Source of the DNA: Clostridia bacterium
GTDB lineage: Bacteria > Bacillota > Clostridia > Oscillospirales > CAG-272
NCBI GenBank assembly: GCA_017463405.1
Contig: JAFTPJ010000171.1
Span: forward strand, 1 to 36,307
Length of the DNA stretch: 36,307 nt
Reading direction: 5' to 3'
The translations under genes and the position numbers were made by a program. Position 1 is the stretch's first letter, and every line of letters begins with the position of its first letter. The notes under the pieces are model-generated. The model did not search any database and was not told where the DNA came from. It worked only from the letters and a program-made list of their open reading frames with translations. Shown here in pieces: positions 25,882-35,765 of the stretch.

Positions 25882-25910
25882 TTGACATCGCAGCTTTAGC
25901 GTGGTAAAAT
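25882..25910 (+). promoter_or_regulatory. Promoter of the branched-chain amino-acid operon
   Basis: TTGACA (25882-25887), a 17-base spacer and TAAAAT (25905-25910), preceded by TGG, an extended -10. The transcript would start near 25917, just before the T-box leader. Confidence 0.85.
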
Positions 25911-25931
25911 AACGGCAATTGAATAACAATA

Positions 25932-26104
25932 AAAGCTGTGACGAAGAATGGTCAGGGTGATCATGCATTTCAGAGAGCCGATGGTTGGTGTAAATCGGTA
26001 TGTAAAATTCCTGTCCTCTCACTTCCGAGCCGGAGCTTGAAGCAGATGTGTGTAGGGCGTCCCGTGTATGCTACGTCAGTGCATAGAGGTTGATAGACTT
26101 CGAT
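25932..26104 (+). ncRNA. T-box Stem I module 1, Leu (CUC) specifier, no own antiterminator
   Basis: The module has the T-box AGAGAG motif (25972-25977), an apical stem CCGAT (25978-25982) with ATCGG (25994-25998) enclosing GGTTGGTG, then the base of the stem GAAG...CTTC. The specifier strand before CTTC is T-CTC-A, so the codon is CUC at 26018-26020, leucine. The downstream part holds a 26-base element at 26061-26086 repeated in module 2. It lacks a TGGNACCGCG sequence and a terminator, so it cannot switch transcription alone. Codon choice follows from alignment with module 2. Confidence 0.8.
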
Positions 26105-26112
26105 ACAATAAA

Positions 26113-26388
26113 GGCGTTGATGAAGAAGGAACCTGCAATGAATTTTCAGAGAGTCGGGGATGGTGTGATCCCGATAAAGGAGTGCGGATGTTCCCATCAC
26201 TTCGGAGCCGGAAGCCCGAACGGTTAACCACCCTGTAGGCGTTTCCCGTGTATGCTACGTCAGTGCATAGGAGTTGATGGACTTCGAAGAGGTGGCGGAT
26301 CGATATCCGCAATTTGAGTGGTACCGCGAGTGTTGAATTTGAATTTGCACCCGTCTCAAAGCAAGAAAAAGCTTTGAGGCGGGTTTTT
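26113..26388 (+). ncRNA. T-box module 2, Ile (AUC) specifier, with antiterminator and terminator
   Basis: AGAGAG (26148-26153), apical stem TCGGG (26154-26158) with CCCGA (26170-26174) around GATGGTGTGAT, lower stem GGAAC (26128-26132) with GTTCC (26190-26194), then C-ATC-A before CTTC: specifier AUC at 26196-26198, isoleucine. Stem III is GCGGAT-CGAT-ATCCGC (26295-26310). The T-box sequence TGGTACCGCG is at 26319-26328. TTTGAG (26313-26318) can pair with CTCAAA (26355-26360), which is also the 5' arm of the terminator, giving the exclusive antiterminator. Uncharged tRNA stabilises the antiterminator and lets the ilv-leu genes be transcribed. Confidence 0.92.
26350..26388 (+). terminator. T-box-controlled intrinsic terminator
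   Basis: CCCGTCTCAAAGC (26350-26362) pairs with GCTTTGAGGCGGG (26371-26383), 13 pairs with one T-G wobble, loop AAGAAAAA, then five Ts. It lies about 60 bases before the ilvA ATG. Confidence 0.95.
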
Positions 26389-26446: not shown

Positions 26447-27637
26447 ATGTTGTCTCTTGATAAGGTATTCAATGCCCAAACGGTGCTGAAAAGCATTATT
26501 CGCGAAACGAACGTAGTAAGAGCTTACGGAATCGCACCCGATTGCGAGCTGTATCTGAAGCCCGAAAATCTGCAGATTACGGGATCCTTTAAGGTGAGGG
26601 GTTCGGCGTATAAGATCGCGATGCTGTCCGAGGAGGAAAAAGCAAAAGGCGTCATCGCGTGCTCTGCGGGAAATCACGCGCAGGGGGTGGCGCTGGCGGC
26701 GACCAAAAACGGAATCAGGTCTTTGATCTGTCTGCCCGATAGCGCACCGATCTCCAAGGTGGAAGCCACAAAGGGCTTTGGCGCCGAGGTCTGTCTGGTG
26801 GAGGGGTGTTACGACGATGCCTATCAAAGGGCATTGGAATTAAAGGACAGCAAGGGCTACACTTTTGTGCATCCATTCGATGACGAAAACGTCATCGCAG
26901 GACAGGGAACAATCGCGCTGGAGATTCTCAACGAGCTGGACAATATCGATGCGATCGTGGTTCCCATCGGAGGCGGTGGATTGATCTCCGGTATCGCTTA
27001 TACCGCAAAGCAGATCAGACCCTCCGTCAAGGTGTACGGCGTACAGGTGGCGGGTGCTCCGAGTATGTACAACTCGGTCAGAGACGGTGAGATCGAATGT
27101 CTTGCATCGGTATCTACCATTGCGGACGGTATCGCCGTCAAGCAGCCCGGCGAAAACACTTATGCACTTGTGAAGGAGTACGTGGACGATATTGTTCTCG
27201 TCAGCGACGACGAGGTGGCAAGCGCGATCCTCGCCCTGATTGAGAAGCAAAAAATGATTGCGGAGGGCGCCGGTGCTACGGCAGTTGCGGCTGTCATGTC
27301 GGGAAAAATTGATCTGAAAAACAAACGGGTTGTGGCGGTTGTATCCGGAGGGAACATTGATGTCACGAGCCTGTCGCGCGTGATTGACCGCGGACTTCTC
27401 AATTCGGGGCGCTCGTCGAGTCTGCTGATCGAATTGATCGACAAGCCCGGTCAGCTCAAGGAAATCTCCCGCATCATCGCCGACTGCGGCGGTAACGTCA
27501 CCGGTGTTCACTACGAAAAGGGTAATACCGAAAGCGTGAACGGATGCTATTTGCGGATTGAAATGGAAACAAGAGATTTCCGACACGTGCATCTGATCAC
27601 ACAGTCCTTACGTGACGAGGGCTTTAAAATTGTTTAA
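26447..27637 (+). CDS. ilvA: Threonine dehydratase with C-terminal ACT domain
   Basis: PLP-dependent enzyme that deaminates threonine to 2-oxobutanoate, the first step to isoleucine. The 396-residue protein has the cofactor lysine in GSFKVRG (Lys49), SAGNHAQGVA for substrate binding and the phosphate loop PIGGGGLISG. The C-terminal region from about residue 325 (SSSLLIELIDKPGQLKEISR) is a single ACT domain, as in the short IlvA/TdcB-with-ACT class rather than the long biosynthetic form with two. Position as first gene of the Leu/Ile/Val operon behind the T-box argues for the biosynthetic role. AAAGGCGGA precedes the ATG. Confidence 0.95.
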   Translation: MLSLDKVFNAQTVLKSIIRETNVVRAYGIAPDCELYLKPENLQITGSFKVRGSAYKIAMLSEEEKAKGVIACSAGNHAQGVALAATKNGIRSLICLPDSAPISKVEATKGFGAEVCLVEGCYDDAYQRALELKDSKGYTFVHPFDDENVIAGQGTIALEILNELDNIDAIVVPIGGGGLISGIAYTAKQIRPSVKVYGVQVAGAPSMYNSVRDGEIECLASVSTIADGIAVKQPGENTYALVKEYVDDIVLVSDDEVASAILALIEKQKMIAEGAGATAVAAVMSGKIDLKNKRVVAVVSGGNIDVTSLSRVIDRGLLNSGRSSSLLIELIDKPGQLKEISRIIADCGGNVTGVHYEKGNTESVNGCYLRIEMETRDFRHVHLITQSLRDEGFKIV

Positions 27638-27658: not shown

Positions 27659-28036
27659 ATGAGGATGAAAATTCAGACAAATAAGGCACCCGCGGCGATC
27701 GGACCTTACTCGCAGGCAGTGGTTATCGGAAATCTTATTTTTACTTCGGGTCAGATTCCCTTAAATCCCGAAACAGGGCTTCTTGAAGGAAACGATATTG
27801 TCGAGCAGACGCACAGAGTCTGCAAAAATCTGCAGGCAGTGCTGGAAGCATCAGGCAGCTCGCTCAACAACGCCGTCAAAACGGTTTGCTTTTTGAGCAA
27901 AATGGAGGATTTTGCGGCGTTTAACGAGGTGTATGCACAGTATTTTACAGAAAAACCCGCACGGTCCTGCGTGGCAGTAAAGGATCTTCCCAAAGGCGCT
28001 TTGGTCGAGGTGGAAGTGATTGCGGAAAAGGAGTAA
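27659..28036 (+). CDS. ridA: RidA-family enamine/imine deaminase
   Basis: Hydrolyses reactive enamine and imine intermediates released by PLP enzymes, including those from IlvA, to keto acids and ammonia. The 125-residue protein has the family pattern: KAPAAIGPYSQAV near the start, SGQIPLNPETG, the middle VCKNLQAVLEASGSSLNN, and PARSCVAVKDLPKGALVEVE with the key Arg101 near the C-terminus. The gene is 21 bases after ilvA with GGAAAGGA as its ribosome site. Its place beside ilvA fits the known partnership of the two proteins in detoxifying 2-aminocrotonate. Confidence 0.94.
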   Translation: MRMKIQTNKAPAAIGPYSQAVVIGNLIFTSGQIPLNPETGLLEGNDIVEQTHRVCKNLQAVLEASGSSLNNAVKTVCFLSKMEDFAAFNEVYAQYFTEKPARSCVAVKDLPKGALVEVEVIAEKE

Positions 28037-28042
28037 GAAACA

Positions 28043-29719
28043 ATGATGGATGCAAGTAAATACCACGTGGGATATTTCCCCGTAGAAAAAAAATATAACA
28101 AATGGGTCGAAAAGGACCATATCGAGCAGCCCCCTGTTTGGTGCAGTGTGGATATGCGAGACGGAAATCAGAGTCTGGTGATTCCGATGAGCCTGGAGGA
28201 AAAGCTGGAATATTACAAGGTGCTCCTGGAGGTTGGCTTTAAGGAGATTGAGGTCGGCTTTCCCGCGGCGAGCGAGACCGAGTATGAGTTCCTCCGCACG
28301 CTGATCGATAACAATATGATTCCCGAGGATGTCACTGTGCAGGTTCTAACGCAGTGCCGCGAGCATATCATTCGCAAGACTTTCGACGCCTGCAAGGGTG
28401 CTCCGAGCGCGATTATCCACTTTTACAATTCGGTTAGTGTGGCACAGCGTGAGCAGGTGTTTAAGAAGGATAAGGAGGCGATCAAAAAAATCGCCGTGGA
28501 CGGCGCAAAGTTGGTAAAGCGTCTGGCAAGCGAATACGAGGGCAATTTCCGCTTTGAATATTCTCCCGAATCCTTTACGGGAACCGAACCCGAGTACGCC
28601 CTTGAGGTTTGCAACGCCGTGCTGGACGTCCTGGAGCCGAGTGCGGACAATAACGTGATTATCAATCTGCCCGTCACAGTGGAGATGAGCTTGCCGCACG
28701 TTTACGCATCGCAGGTGGAGTACATGAGCGAGAATCTGAAATACCGCGAGTTTGTCACCCTTTCGCTTCATCCGCACAACGACCGAGGAACGGGTGTTGC
28801 GGATACCGAGCTGGCGCTTCTGGCGGGGGCTGACCGCGTGGAGGGCACGCTGTTCGGCAACGGCGAACGTACCGGAAACGTAGATATCATCACGCTGGCG
28901 ATGAATATGTATTCTCACGGTGTGGATCCGAAGCTGGATCTTTCCAACATGAATTATTTGGTTGAAAAATATGAAAAGTGTACCCGTATGCACGTTTACG
29001 AGAGAGCCCCATATGCGGGAGCGTTGGTATTTGCCGCCTTCTCTGGATCGCATCAGGACGCGATTGCAAAGGGTATGAAATACAGAACCAAGAACAAGTT
29101 GCACGAGTGGAGCGTTCCGTATATTCCGATCGATCCGAAGGATATCGGCAGAACCTACGACGCGGATGTGATCCGCGTCAATTCACAATCGGGTAAGGGT
29201 GGCATCGGATATCTGTTGGAGCAGACGTTCGGTTACAATCTGCCGCCTAAGATGCGCGAGCATTTCAGTTATCTGTGCAAGGATATCTCCGATCATGAGC
29301 ACAAGGAGCTTAAGCCCGATGAGGTGCTGGATATCTTTGTCTCGCATTATCTGAATCTGAACGGCGACATTGCGGTTACGGATTTTGACTTTATGCGGGA
29401 AAACGATGCGGTAAAGATCAATATCACCTTCATGAGAAACGGTGAGGAGACCGAACTGGAGGCAGAAGGCAACGGTACCCTCAGTGCAATTAACAATGCG
29501 CTCACCGCCTATACCGAGGAGCAGTATACGCTGCAGGTGTTTACCCAGCACAGCATGCAGGGACAGGGCTCGCAGAGTGTAGCCGCCTCTTATATCGGTC
29601 TGGAGCGCACGGACGGCAAGATGTTCTGGGGCGCGGGTACCGATACCGACGTGATCACGGCAAGCACAAATGCACTTTTGAGTGCTTTCTATAATATGAC
29701 CAAAGGAGATGTGAAGTAA
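28043..29719 (+). CDS. leuA: 2-isopropylmalate synthase, long (type 2) class
   Basis: Condenses acetyl-CoA with 2-oxoisovalerate, the first committed step to leucine. The 558-residue protein starts with a tail of about 30 residues, then [11 protein letters not shown] with catalytic Arg39 and Asp40, [14 protein letters not shown], the metal-binding [11 protein letters not shown] and [10 protein letters not shown]. The C-terminal quarter (about 430-555) is the LeuA regulatory domain that binds leucine, so feedback control is expected. Length and the motif [15 protein letters not shown] place it with the yeast/actinobacterial-type LeuA rather than the 510-residue E. coli type. Two ATGs open it (28043 and 28046). 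The stop shares one base with the leuC start. Confidence 0.95.
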
Positions 29720-30978
29720 TGGGAATGACGATGACGCAAAAAATCCTTGCCGCCCACGCGGGGCTTGACAAAGTGGTTGCAGGTCAGCTGATCAATGCAA
29801 AGTTGGACATTGTTCTGGGCAACGATATTACCACGCCCGTTGCGGTAAATGAGTTTAAAAAGGCGGGCTTTGAGGATGTATTCGATAAGGATCGAGTGGC
29901 AATTGTTTTGGACCACTTTGTTCCCAATAAGGATATCAAGGCGGCGGAGCAGAGCAAAACCTGTCGTGAATTTGCCTGCGCACACTGCGTCAGCCACTTT
30001 TACGACGTTGGTAAAATGGGCATCGAGCATGCGCTTCTGCCCGAGCAGGGAGTTGTGACCGCGGGCGACTGCATCATCGGTGCGGACAGTCACACCTGCA
30101 CGTACGGGGCACTCGGTGCATTTTCTACGGGCGTCGGTTCCACCGATATGGCGGCGGGCATGGCAACGGGAATGGCTTGGTTTAAGGTGCCGTCTGCGAT
30201 TCAGTTTCATCTGACAGGGAAGCTGCCGTCGAACTGTAGCGGTAAGGACGTGATTCTGACCATCATAGGAATGATCGGTGTGGACGGTGCGCTTTACAAG
30301 AGCATGGAGTTTGTCGGAGACGGAGCGCACGGGCTGTCGATGGACGACCGTCTCTGCATTTGCAACATGGCAATCGAGGCAGGCGCAAAAAACGGCATTT
30401 TCCCCGTGGACGACGTAACGCTGGAATACCTCAATGGCAGAAGCGAGCGATCCGCAGTGATCTTTACGGCGGATGCCGACGCCGAATACGAGCGCGTTAT
30501 TGATATTGATCTTTCAAAAATCGTTCCCACTGTTGCATGTCCCCATCTTCCCGAAAACACCCATCCCGCGAGCGAATTGCACGGTATCAAGGTGGATCAG
30601 GTTGTGATCGGTTCGTGCACCAATGGCAGAATGGAGGATATGGAAGCCGCATACAACATCCTGAAGAACAAAAAAATCGCAGACGGAATCCGTTGCATTA
30701 TCATTCCCGGTACGATGCAGATCCTCCGCGAATGCGTGGAGCGCGGCTGGTATACGGCGTTTATTGACGCGGGCGCGGTGGTTTCCACGCCGACCTGCGG
30801 TCCTTGCCTTGGCGGATACATGGGAATTTTAGCGGCAGGCGAGCGTTGTATTGCAACGACCAACCGCAATTTTGTCGGCAGAATGGGACACGTGAACAGT
30901 GAGGTTTACCTTGCATCTCCCCACACAGCTGCCGCAAGTGCGCTGACAGGCTATATTACGGAATATACGGAGGAATAA
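29719..30978 (+). CDS. leuC: 3-isopropylmalate dehydratase large subunit
   Basis: With LeuD it isomerises 2- to 3-isopropylmalate. The 419-residue protein belongs to the short LeuC class common in Clostridia and archaea. The 4Fe-4S cluster ligands are visible: Cys300 in IGSCTNGR and Cys360/Cys363 in TCGPCLGG. Substrate-binding [13 protein letters not shown] and [14 protein letters not shown] are also present. It starts [16 protein letters not shown], as is usual for the class, with AAAGGAG inside the end of leuA. The ATG overlaps the leuA stop by one base and leuD follows after 3 bases. Confidence 0.96.
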
Positions 30979-30981
30979 ACG

Positions 30982-31479
30982 ATGAATACACAGGGAAAGG
31001 CTTTCAAATATCCCGATAACGTGGACACTGACGTCATCATCCCCGCACGGTATCTGAATACCCCCGATGCAAATGAGTTAGCGCTTCACTGCATGGAGGA
31101 CATCGACTCCGCGTTTGTCAAGAACGTGAAAAAGGGAGACGTGATGGTTGCGGGCTGGAACTTCGGCTGCGGATCCTCTCGCGAACACGCACCGCTTGTG
31201 ATCAAGACCTGCGGTACGGGTTGCGTGATTGCAAAAAGCTTTGCAAGAATTTTTTATCGCAACGCGATCAATATCGGCTTGCCGATTCTCGAATGCGAGG
31301 CTGCGGCAGAAGAAATAGCGGCAAATGATGAGGTCCGAGTGGATTTTGATACCGGTGTGATTACCGACATTACCACGGGAAAGACCTATCAGGCGCAGCC
31401 CTTTCCGCCCTTTATCCAGAATATCATCAAATGCGGCGGACTTTTAAAATCCCTGAAGGAAGGAGAAAACAATGGTTAA
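30982..31479 (+). CDS. leuD: 3-isopropylmalate dehydratase small subunit
   Basis: The swivel-domain partner of LeuC, needed to complete the active site. The 165-residue protein opens with [20 protein letters not shown] and has the conserved [18 protein letters not shown] loop, [18 protein letters not shown] and the C-terminal end found in the short class that goes with short LeuC. Its final codons overlap the leuB start by 8 bases, so leuD and leuB are translationally coupled. Nothing unusual is visible. Confidence 0.96.
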
Positions 31480-32539
31480 AAATATAGCGGTGATTCGCGG
31501 CGACGGAATCGGACCCGAAATTGTAGAGCAGGCATTGAAGGTGCTTGACAAGGTGGCGGAGCTTTACGGTCATACCTTCCATTATACCGATGTGGATATG
31601 GGCGGCTGCGCCATCGACAAATACGGAGATCCGTTGCCCGCATCGGAGCTTGAAAAATGCCTTGCCTCCGACAGCGTGCTGCTCGGCGCTGTGGGCGGAA
31701 ACAAATGGAACGACGTGCCGGGTCCCATGCGTCCTGAAAAGGGCTTGCTTCGCCTGCGTGCGGGTATGGGGGTCTATTCCAACAACCGTCCCGCAAAAAT
31801 CTGGCATCAGCTTGCCGATGCGTCTCCTCTGAAAAAGGAGATTGTTGAAAAGGGAATCGACTTTATCATTGTCCGTGAGCTGATCGGCGGTATTTATTTC
31901 GGCGAGCATAAAACCGAGGGCGATGTCGCGACCGACGTGCTGAAATACAGCGAGGCGGAAATCGAACGCATCGGCAGAATTGGCTTTGAAACGGCAAGAA
32001 AGAGAAGCAAAAGGTTGTGCTCGGTGGAAAAGAGCAACGTGCTCGATTCCAGCCGCCTTTGGAAAAAAGTCATGCACAGGCTTGCCGAGGAGTATCCTGA
32101 CGTGGAGCTTTCCGACATGCTGGTGGACAACTGTGCAATGCAGATTGTCAAAAATCCCGCACAGTTTGACGTCGTGGTAACCGAAAACATGTTCGGTGAT
32201 ATTTTGTCCGACGAGGCGTCGATGATTACGGGATCGATCGGTATGATTCCGTCTTCCAGCCTCGGTGCGACAACCTGCGGGCTCTACGAGCCGATCCACG
32301 GCTCCGCACCCGATATCGCGGGCATGGACGTTGCAAACCCGATCGGTACAATTCTGTCGGCAGCGATGATGCTTCGCTTCAGTTTCGACATGCCGCGAGA
32401 GGCGCAAGCGATCGAAAATGCCGTTTCTGCATACCTTGATGCAGGCTACCGCACTGCCGACATTATGAGCGAGGAAATGACACAGGTCGGTTGCTCTGCG
32501 TGCGGTGCACTGATTATCAAACATTTAAAAGGGGAGTGA
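31472..32539 (+). CDS. leuB: 3-isopropylmalate dehydrogenase
   Basis: NAD-dependent oxidative decarboxylase giving 4-methyl-2-oxopentanoate, the leucine precursor. The 355-residue protein has normal length, with [41 protein letters not shown], the substrate loop [12 protein letters not shown], metal-binding [28 protein letters not shown] and [11 protein letters not shown] for the adenine side. The GGIYFG motif and the [11 protein letters not shown] motif separate it from isocitrate dehydrogenases. AAGGAGAAAAC precedes the ATG. It ends 4 bases before ilvB. Confidence 0.97.
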
Positions 32540-32543
32540 TACG

Positions 32544-34213
32544 ATGGTTCTATCCGGTGCAGATATCCTTGTCAGAACATTGATAGAACAGGGCTGTGCA
32601 ACCGTTTTCGGTTACCCGGGCGGACAGATTCTGAACGTATATGACAGCCTTTACAAATACCAAGATGAAATCAATCATATCCTGACGGCGCACGAGCAGG
32701 GAGCGGCACATGCCGCGGACGGTTATGCGAGAACCACGGGTAAGGTTGGCGTTGTGATTTCCACCTCGGGTCCCGGTGCGACCAATCTTGTTACGGGAAT
32801 CGCAACGGCGTATCTGGATTCGATACCCATGGTTGCCATTTGCGGAAACGTGCCGACGACGCAGATCGGAACGGACAGCTTTCAGGAGATCGACATTACG
32901 GGTGTCACCCTGCCGATCACAAAGCACAATTATTTCGTCGGATCCGTAGATCGGCTTGCCGATACGATTCGTGAGGCGTTCACACTTGCCAAATCAGGAA
33001 GACCAGGTCCCGTGCTGATCGACGTACCAAAGGACGTGCAGATCGCAACGTGCGAATATGAGCCGATGCCGCCGGCAGAAAATGACGCGCCCTATGCGGC
33101 AAAGGACATTCGTATTGAAGAAGCAGCAAAGCATATCAACGCCGCAAAGCGCCCGTATATCTATTTCGGCGGCGGACTGATCACTGCAGGCGCGCAGGAG
33201 GAGTTGCTGTCGCTTGCCGAGATGATAGACGCGCCCATCGGGTGCTCCCTGATGGGGCTGTCGGGCATTCCTACCGATCATCCGAGATTTCTCGGCATGC
33301 AGGGCATGCACGGGCATTATGCGTCCTCGATGGCGATGCACAATGCCGACCTCATCCTCTCACTCGGTGTTCGCTTTAACGACCGTGTGACGGGAAACCG
33401 TGCAAAGTTCGCAACAGGAGCAAAGATCATTCACATCGATGTGGACGGCTCCGAGCTTTGCAAGACGGTCAATGCCGTGTGCGGGTTACGCGGAGACGTC
33501 AAGCTGACGTTGCAAAAGCTTCTTCCGATGCTACAGCCATGTGACAAGCCCGATTGGATGGCAACGGTGGAAGGCTTCCGCCGCGAGGAGGCAAGCTGTC
33601 TCGATCAAAGAGAGGGCATGACACCCCGCAGGGCGATTCTGACGCTTAATAAGCATCTGGGGGAGAACACGGCGGTTGCGACCGACGTCGGGCAGCACCA
33701 AATGTGGTCGGCGCAGAGCTTGTCCTTCCGGAAACCGCGCAGATTCGTTTCCAGCGGCGGACTCGGTACCATGGGATTCGGCTTCGGTGCGGCAATCGGT
33801 GCAGCGTTCGGTACCGGGGAGCGCAGTGTTCTCGTCACGGGGGACGGAAGCTTTGGTATGTGCCTCAATGAGCTTGCTACTGCGGTGCGTTACAAAGTTC
33901 CCGTTGTTGTGCTGATTATGAATAACGGCGTGCTCGGTATGGTACGTCAGTGGCAGACGCTGTTTTTCAACAAGCATTATTCCAACACCGTGCTGGATCG
34001 CAAGACCGATTTTTCGGCACTCGCGTGTGCCTTCGGTGCTGCGGGAGAAGCAGTATCCACGCCCGAGGAGCTGGATGCGGCGCTGACCAGAGCCTTTGCA
34101 CAGGACGGACCGTATATCATCGATTGCAAGATCGATCGGGATGAGTTTGTTCTTCCCATGCTTCCGCCCGGCGGCAGTATGGATGATATCATTACGAAGC
34201 TGGAGGTGGAACG

Positions 34214-34217
<4 letters not shown>
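32544..34217 (+). CDS. ilvB: Acetolactate synthase large (catalytic) subunit
   Basis: TPP- and FAD-dependent enzyme making 2-acetolactate for Val/Leu and 2-aceto-2-hydroxybutanoate for Ile. The 557-residue protein starts SGADILVRTLIEQG and VFGYPGGQILNVYD, with the catalytic Glu in AHEQGAAHAADGYA and STSGPGATNLVTGIA. The middle domain has LGVRFNDRVTG and the TPP motif GDGSFGMCLNELATA ... MNNGVLGMVRQWQ. FSALACAFGA and EFVLPMLPPGGS close it. Ends match the anabolic AHAS, not the catabolic ALS. GGGGAG precedes the ATG, and the last four bases overlap the small subunit gene. Confidence 0.97.

Positions 34218-35765
<1,548 letters not shown>

Follow-up and report, generated by a model that had tools for sequence, protein, structure and literature searches.

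Upstream of a branched-chain amino acid operon in an uncultured member of the Clostridia lies a T-box leader in which two tRNA-decoding modules, one carrying a leucine and the other an isoleucine specifier codon, stand in series before a single antiterminator and a single terminator. The window, that is, the whole stretch of 36,307 nucleotides that was analysed, is one contig (JAFTPJ010000171.1) of a draft genome that is 82.6% complete, and the leader occupies positions 25882–26384 of its forward strand, with the operon ilvA-ridA-leuACDB-ilvBNC directly behind it. The tandem leader is real and is conserved in many uncultured Clostridia, mostly of animal-gut origin according to their records. 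The comparative sequence evidence leans, by a little over even, towards a two-input T-box riboswitch in which two live inputs would act on one readout, most likely in an OR-like manner.

The leader opens with a promoter-like sequence recognised by its pattern (TTGACA-17-TAAAAT with TG before the −10 element, 25882–25910). Module 1 (25929–26107), defined by its match to the Rfam T-box family RF00230, by alignment and by covariation, comprises Stem I with a K-turn base, a specifier loop and the AGAGA/UGxRA apical motif, then Stem II, the IIA/B pseudoknot and a small hairpin. It has neither a Stem III nor an antiterminator and ends where Stem III would start, with module 2 (26108–26287, by RF00230 match and alignment) following a few bases on. 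Module 2 repeats the same parts with its own specifier and leads into the only Stem III hairpin (GCGGAT/ATCCGC, 26295–26310), the only antiterminator (26313–26360, with the bulge TGGTACC at 26319–26325) and the only intrinsic terminator (26349–26384), the last from a prediction of terminator-like sites.

The initial annotation of this DNA had described two Stem I modules in tandem with the AGAGA motif, and that motif is indeed present in both modules (25972–25976 and 26148–26152). It had also placed the specifiers correctly: register alignment puts CTC (Leu) at 26018–26020 and ATC (Ile) at 26196–26198, each four bases before the end of CTTC and thus in identical register, the module 1 loop reading CTC before ACTTC. 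The repeated element of the IIA/B pseudoknot, which it gave as 26 bases, is identical between the modules as claimed and is 27 nucleotides long (26060–26086 in module 1; 26244–26270 in module 2, recognised as the sequence repeat). This element is conserved across the aligned modules of 39 leaders, so its identity over such a length in the window is nothing unusual.

All genes of the operon lie on the forward strand and agree with the earlier proposal of an operon for Leu, Ile and Val. They encode threonine ammonia-lyase (ilvA, 26447–27637), a Rid-family hydrolase (ridA, 27659–28036), 2-isopropylmalate synthase (leuA, 28043–29719), the products of leuC (29719–30978), leuD (30982–31479) and leuB (31472–32539), the large and small subunits of acetolactate synthase (ilvB, 32544–34217; ilvN, 34214–34720) and ketol-acid reductoisomerase (ilvC, 34749–35765).

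A search with the Rfam T-box model, which the initial annotation had proposed as a check, matched both modules: module 1 at 25929–26093 (62.6 bits, E = 3 × 10−13) and module 2 at 26108–26361 (81 bits, E = 5.6 × 10−18). With both E values below 10−12, we rejected the possibility that the modules are chance matches. A scan of the window at the Rfam gathering threshold was blank, both modules lying below the gathering score of 93, as do 8 of the 11 T-box matches of the genome when these two are included; surveys or default annotation at that cut-off would therefore miss the leader. Three further T-boxes of the genome speak for this specifier register. Those before valS-, ileS- and trpB-like open reading frames (named from their translations rather than by family search) read GTC, ATC and TGG, respectively, the trpB-like one with the bulge TGGC.

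The TGGT of the antiterminator bulge could pair with the ACCA end of tRNAs that carry A73. That it would suit tRNA-Leu had been proposed at the outset, and the genome does hold a tRNA-Leu(GAG) gene with A73 and CCA. In general, tRNA-Ile and tRNA-Val carry A73 as well. The 29 tRNA matches of the draft (82.6% complete) include no tRNA-Ile(GAU) gene, and ARAGORN found none in 25 of the 43 matches of G141, a related genome with its own tandem leader. The genome also contains two T-boxes 2.6 kb apart (C92:4221 and C92:6860; L007 1501–1743 and L008 1501–1754), one reading ATC (Ile) and the other apparently GTA (Val), each before a long open reading frame whose N-terminal sequence looks HTH- and cupin-like by eye. 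T-box pairs at a similar distance occur in several genomes of the same genus, and L069 holds a similar T-box and open reading frame.

Comparison with the leaders of relatives, also suggested at the start, proved productive. A pattern scan of GTDB contigs returned 49 stretches, of which 35 are tandem leaders (34 recognised by script and L090 by eye) and 14, with one module only recognised, were dropped. Tandem leaders occur in 11 of 395 genomes of the family, the window included, and in 8 of its 71 genera. Removal of duplicates left 39 distinct leaders, and the addition of L090, L163 and L171 brought the set to 42. The module 1 specifier is CTC in 38 of these, CTG in 1 and GTC in 3, hence Leu in 39 and Val in 3, and that of module 2 is ATC (Ile) in 41. 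AGARA followed by UGxRA is present in every first and every second module (42/42 each), with the exact AGAGA in 40 first modules, and the first readable gene downstream is ilvA, leuA or, in L090, ridA followed by leuA. A promoter-like site lies at most 90 nucleotides upstream of module 1 in 35 of the 39 leaders, and one of the four without it is cut by the end of its locus; in L097 a loose pattern also gave a promoter-like match inside module 1 (1/39).

Module 1 is the weaker Rfam match in relatives too (55.1 bits in G013, 40.3 bits in G439), and that of G012 (L014) is absent from the RF00230 matches at E up to 0.01. Of nine matches to the CAGARA pattern among 295 genomes of the order, the matched text shows a tandem in just two, the window and G141, and no match to the tandem spacing with the bulge TGGA, TGGC or TGGG was found in 398 genomes of the phylum, scanned for this spacing alone.

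Several leaders depart from the common plan. L090 (2247–2609) is a tandem before ridA-leuA with no ilvA between; its second specifier is not ATC and reads TTC, or GTT with the helix one pair longer, and its Stem I base is changed from GAAG/CTTC to AAAG/CTTT. Three leaders of Fournierella (L080, L092 and L099) carry GTC (Val) instead of CTC as first specifier. In L015 (1501–1720, genome G005), a CTC module 1 runs into the start of a Stem III and then into unrelated sequence near the contig end, and this is either a broken leader or an assembly join.

The presence of a single readout, as first proposed for the window, extends to the relatives. In the window, the antiterminator sequence TGGTACCGCG is present once (26319–26328), downstream of both modules, and no terminator-like site was found between the modules, the only one being that at 26349–26384. 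Across the tandem leaders, TGGNACCGCG occurs exactly once from the start of module 1 to the bulge (39/39), and no run of five T was found at the 3′ end of module 1 (39/39). GGNACC alone occurs in the stretch searched in 9 of the 39 leaders, in all 9 within the 5′ strand of Stem I of module 2; L082 and L112 have an extra GGNACC within module 1, which lacks the remainder of the box. A hidden antiterminator between the modules, which had been named at the outset as a threat to the shared-readout reading, was thus not found, and we rejected it on the strength of the single TGGNACCGCG, the missing run of T and, in the window, the lack of a second terminator-like site. An adjacent-aptamer riboswitch has been defined by aptamers less than about 20 nucleotides apart followed by one expression platform (PMC12452182), and with linkers of 5–9 nucleotides between the modules in 39/39 leaders and one antiterminator and terminator, the leader falls under this definition. 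A platform of its own for each unit, by which complete tandem T-boxes are recognised, was found neither in the window nor in any of the 39 leaders.

On comparative grounds, module 1 is under selection. Its mean identity over the 39 aligned rows is 0.69 (0.78 for module 2), and its specifier columns, weighted over 27 clusters, are C at 0.97, T at 1.0 and C at 0.96. When the T-box structure, written by hand from the known architecture, is laid on the module 1 alignment, 92.6% of cells pair, and sliding the partner by one to three columns lowers pairing to 29–44%; the RNAalifold consensus was mixed, with the T-box fold only in parts. Two-sided changes occur in 18 of 39 pairs, compared with 10.7 in shuffles (0 of 500 as high), a control limited by the fact that related rows may exceed shuffles even without structure. 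These changes lie in distal and middle Stem I, Stem II and IIA, with the base of Stem I invariant and IIB nearly so; pairing is weakest in the middle helix of Stem I (68.7%). The concern that module 1 cannot fold thus did not hold, as its T-box fold covaries across relatives. The minimum-energy fold of the window's module 1 misses the T-box fold (−44.6 kcal/mol, with the nested T-box helices at −18.0 kcal/mol; z = 0.79). This test is uninformative, as neither module 2 nor the valS-like T-box of the genome exceeds shuffles in stability (z = −0.34 and −0.38).

The same platform also occurs in nature with one module. Among 385 genomes of the family, 159 have an ilvA at E up to 10−140, and 33 ilvA are at least 75% identical to that of the window (G624, with a partial ilvA containing a stop, was left out of these orthologues). 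The leaders of 32 of the 33 comprise 11 Leu-Ile tandems, 14 with Ile only and 7 with Leu only. The platform motif GCAATTTGAGTGGTACC is present in 39/39 tandem, 14/14 Ile-only and 9/11 Leu-only leaders tested; L185 and L186 have a single Leu T-box of different build, and in L185 an Rfam Gut-1 RNA match (906–983) lies about 200 nucleotides upstream of the Leu T-box of the ilvA operon. Upstream of seven distant ilvA homologues (L045–L051) no T-box was found at E up to 0.1, and 6 of 17 other homologues at 71% identity or less have one; both sets are excluded from all counts.

In a tree built, with masked specifiers, from 110 decoding modules, to which the single-Ile modules L007, L016 and L034 were added by choice, all 42 first modules and four single-Leu modules (L175, L077, L153 and L156) fall on one side of a branch with support of 96/96, and 41 second modules and eight single-Ile modules on one side of another (100/99). 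These groupings imply that modules of either kind can be found singly on the shared platform. Outside both groups fall the remaining five single-Leu and nine single-Ile modules, so that some Ile-only leaders, including six at 81% ilvA identity, have Ile modules of other descent. The second module of L075 (3137–3570) is unplaced (73/64); it has a Leu-type look with ATC and may stem from a separate duplication and re-specification.

On the ilvA tree, 10 changes among leader states are needed, a count that cannot separate gain from loss, and the outermost operon branches are mostly single-Leu. Together the trees suggest that the Leu-only state is older and that module 1 was lost later in some Ile-only relatives. 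Leaders without ilvA (L066, L101 and L090) or without a readable one are absent from this tree, as are duplicates. A pattern search of 390 family genomes recovered nine single-Leu T-boxes: three before ilvA, one each before leuA, ilvB and a MaoC-like gene, two before another open reading frame and one (ridA-leuA) cut at the contig start. The MaoC-like gene, in L156 (G380), is named from its translation, and the ilvB-like gene, in L157, belongs to G141, where the tandem leader precedes ilvA.

The Leu module goes mostly with leu genes. This was tabulated for 49 leaders, the 61 rows of the ilvA tree minus nine with unreadable downstream genes and three outgroup rows: both are present in 30, neither in 15, the module only in four and the genes only in none. 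The Leu module thus accompanies 30/30 operons with leuA and is absent from 15/19 without leuA in the stretch read. By leader state, leuA is found in 0/13 readable Ile-only, 6/6 Leu-only and 24/28 Leu-Ile tandem operons, the four exceptions (L165, L171, L091 and L106) being tandems whose Leu module is followed by no leuA within the stretch read. The readable Val-Ile leaders precede ilvA-ilvB (L080) and ilvA-ilvBNC (L099), likewise with no leuA in the stretch read, and L092 is too short. Absence of leuA was judged on 0.5 to 9.6 kb, the short stretches being L173 (0.5 kb), L184 (1.3 kb), L080 (1.6 kb) and L091 (2.1 kb). Outside the 49-leader count, L066 and L101 keep the Ile module with leuA as first gene, and L090, without ilvA, has lost ATC. 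Fisher's exact test gives P = 2.5 × 10−9 on the raw table, the rows of which are related (5 × 10−6 on an earlier, smaller gene-content table), and the association corrected for kinship is not significant: five supported independent pairs, 3.3 on average going the same way and none the opposite way (P = 0.125–0.5). The direction of the association is consistent.

We propose that the two decoding modules would fold in series, the Leu module (CUC) ahead of the Ile module (AUC), with a few linker bases between them. An uncharged tRNA would dock, either tRNA-Leu on module 1 or tRNA-Ile on module 2, and its free ACCA end would pair with the single UGGU bulge and stabilise the antiterminator, so that the operon would be read through when either Leu or Ile is short. 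Such OR logic would suit the operon because it makes Leu, Ile and Val. We infer that both tRNAs bind and that either suffices. It speaks against this reading that the tRNA on module 1 would have to reach past module 2, to an antiterminator that for it lies about 180 nucleotides farther downstream. To judge from the Ile-only relatives, module 1 can be lost and so seems not to be indispensable.

The same leader could be put to other uses. AND-like or cooperative logic, in which tRNA-Leu docked on module 1 would stabilise or position module 2 and strong antitermination would demand both uncharged tRNAs, and with them general branched-chain starvation, fits most of the same comparative data. Close packing of the modules in 39/39 leaders speaks for it, as do two precedents: glycine riboswitches, whose tandem aptamers with a single platform are described as cooperative (PMC9481103), and complete tandem T-boxes before branched-chain operons, which are said to require two uncharged tRNAs (PMC12452182). 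Orthologous ilvA operons nevertheless also occur behind Leu-only and Ile-only leaders, which suggests that one input is enough in relatives, and an AND gate would leave the operon off with only one amino acid short; we therefore regard such a gate as unlikely. Much the same holds for a module 1 that merely modulates, binding tRNA-Leu, charged or not, and altering pausing, folding speed or access to module 2 while the tRNA end stays off the antiterminator. The distance of module 1 from the antiterminator would favour this role, as would the fixed order of Leu (or Val) before Ile in 41/42 leaders, which an order-free OR gate does not require, although common descent explains it as well. Modules of the module 1 kind nevertheless stand alone on the same platform in L175, L077, L153 and L156, and the platform of tandem leaders looks unchanged by eye, leaving modulation an outside chance; both this role and AND-like logic fit less well than OR.

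That module 1 is a relic, an old Leu T-box decaying after the loss of its antiterminator, we consider very improbable. Its Rfam score is below that of module 2, and the eight Ile-only leaders with modules of the module 2 kind suggest its loss in relatives, but a Leu or Val specifier is retained in 42/42 leaders at 69% mean identity, covariation and AGARA/UGxRA are intact, and none of the 13 readable Ile-only operons has leuA. Least credible of all would be two independent T-boxes of which the first has a hidden readout, for instance a translational one or a weak antiterminator of module 1. Nothing beyond the tandem layout speaks for it, whereas the only terminator-like site of the window follows module 2, and all 39 leaders combine a single TGGNACCGCG with a module 1 end free of five-T runs and a linker of 5–9 nucleotides. 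The OR-like reading remains the one that we prefer.

The leader is related to several known systems. It shares with the transcriptional T-boxes of RF00230 the Stem I, Stem II, IIA/B pseudoknot, Stem III, TGGTACCGCG antiterminator and terminator, and in both the specifiers match the products of the operon; here, the decoding part is present twice, with two specifiers, and the discriminating part once. The ilv-leu operon of Bacillus subtilis has a single Leu T-box (PMC12452182). Complete tandem T-boxes (trp, thrS and ilv, and that of Clostridioides difficile) also have two decoders per leader. In C. difficile, two T-boxes presumed to recognise two different tRNAs precede homoserine dehydrogenase (PMC11477304), and where T-boxes are contiguous, each tends to form a complete unit with a platform of its own (PMC12452182), whereas here one readout follows both decoders. 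Partially tandem T-boxes, an incomplete repetition of T-box domains, are mentioned in print, in the texts covered here without example, specifiers or logic. Tandem glycine and guanine-PRPP aptamers likewise place two aptamers before one expression platform, the latter with two different ligands and an IMPLY gate (PMC9481103); their ligands are small molecules, whereas here two tRNAs are both expected to be ON inputs, giving OR or AND.

One readout also serves two tRNAs in the two-codon T-box of Clostridium acetobutylicum, where a single specifier loop is read in two registers, for tRNA-Asn and tRNA-Glu. The leader described here differs in having two separate decoding modules. Within the portions of the literature that our search covered (PMC9481103, PMC12452182, PMC11477304, PMC9413887, PMC7778990, PMC2494555, PMC5912903 and PMC4342826), we did not find a Leu-Ile T-box with a shared readout. 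We do not claim partial tandems as such to be new; the Leu-Ile leader with a shared readout is a new conserved variant.

The leader family raises the question of whether a tRNA bound to a decoder at the distance of a whole module can reach the antiterminator of a T-box. The natural occurrence of this platform with either kind of module by itself makes the family more interesting than first noted, and the Leu-only, Ile-only and Leu-Ile relatives on this platform are ready-made deletion controls. In a 2022 survey, OR is given among the logic functions not observed in nature (PMC9481103), and the family is a strong candidate and direct test case for a natural RNA OR gate. We see an even chance that it is the first such gate, one antiterminator satisfied by either of two uncharged tRNAs, in a lineage that would add, remove and re-specify its decoding modules, among Leu, Ile and Val, as the genes of the operon come and go.
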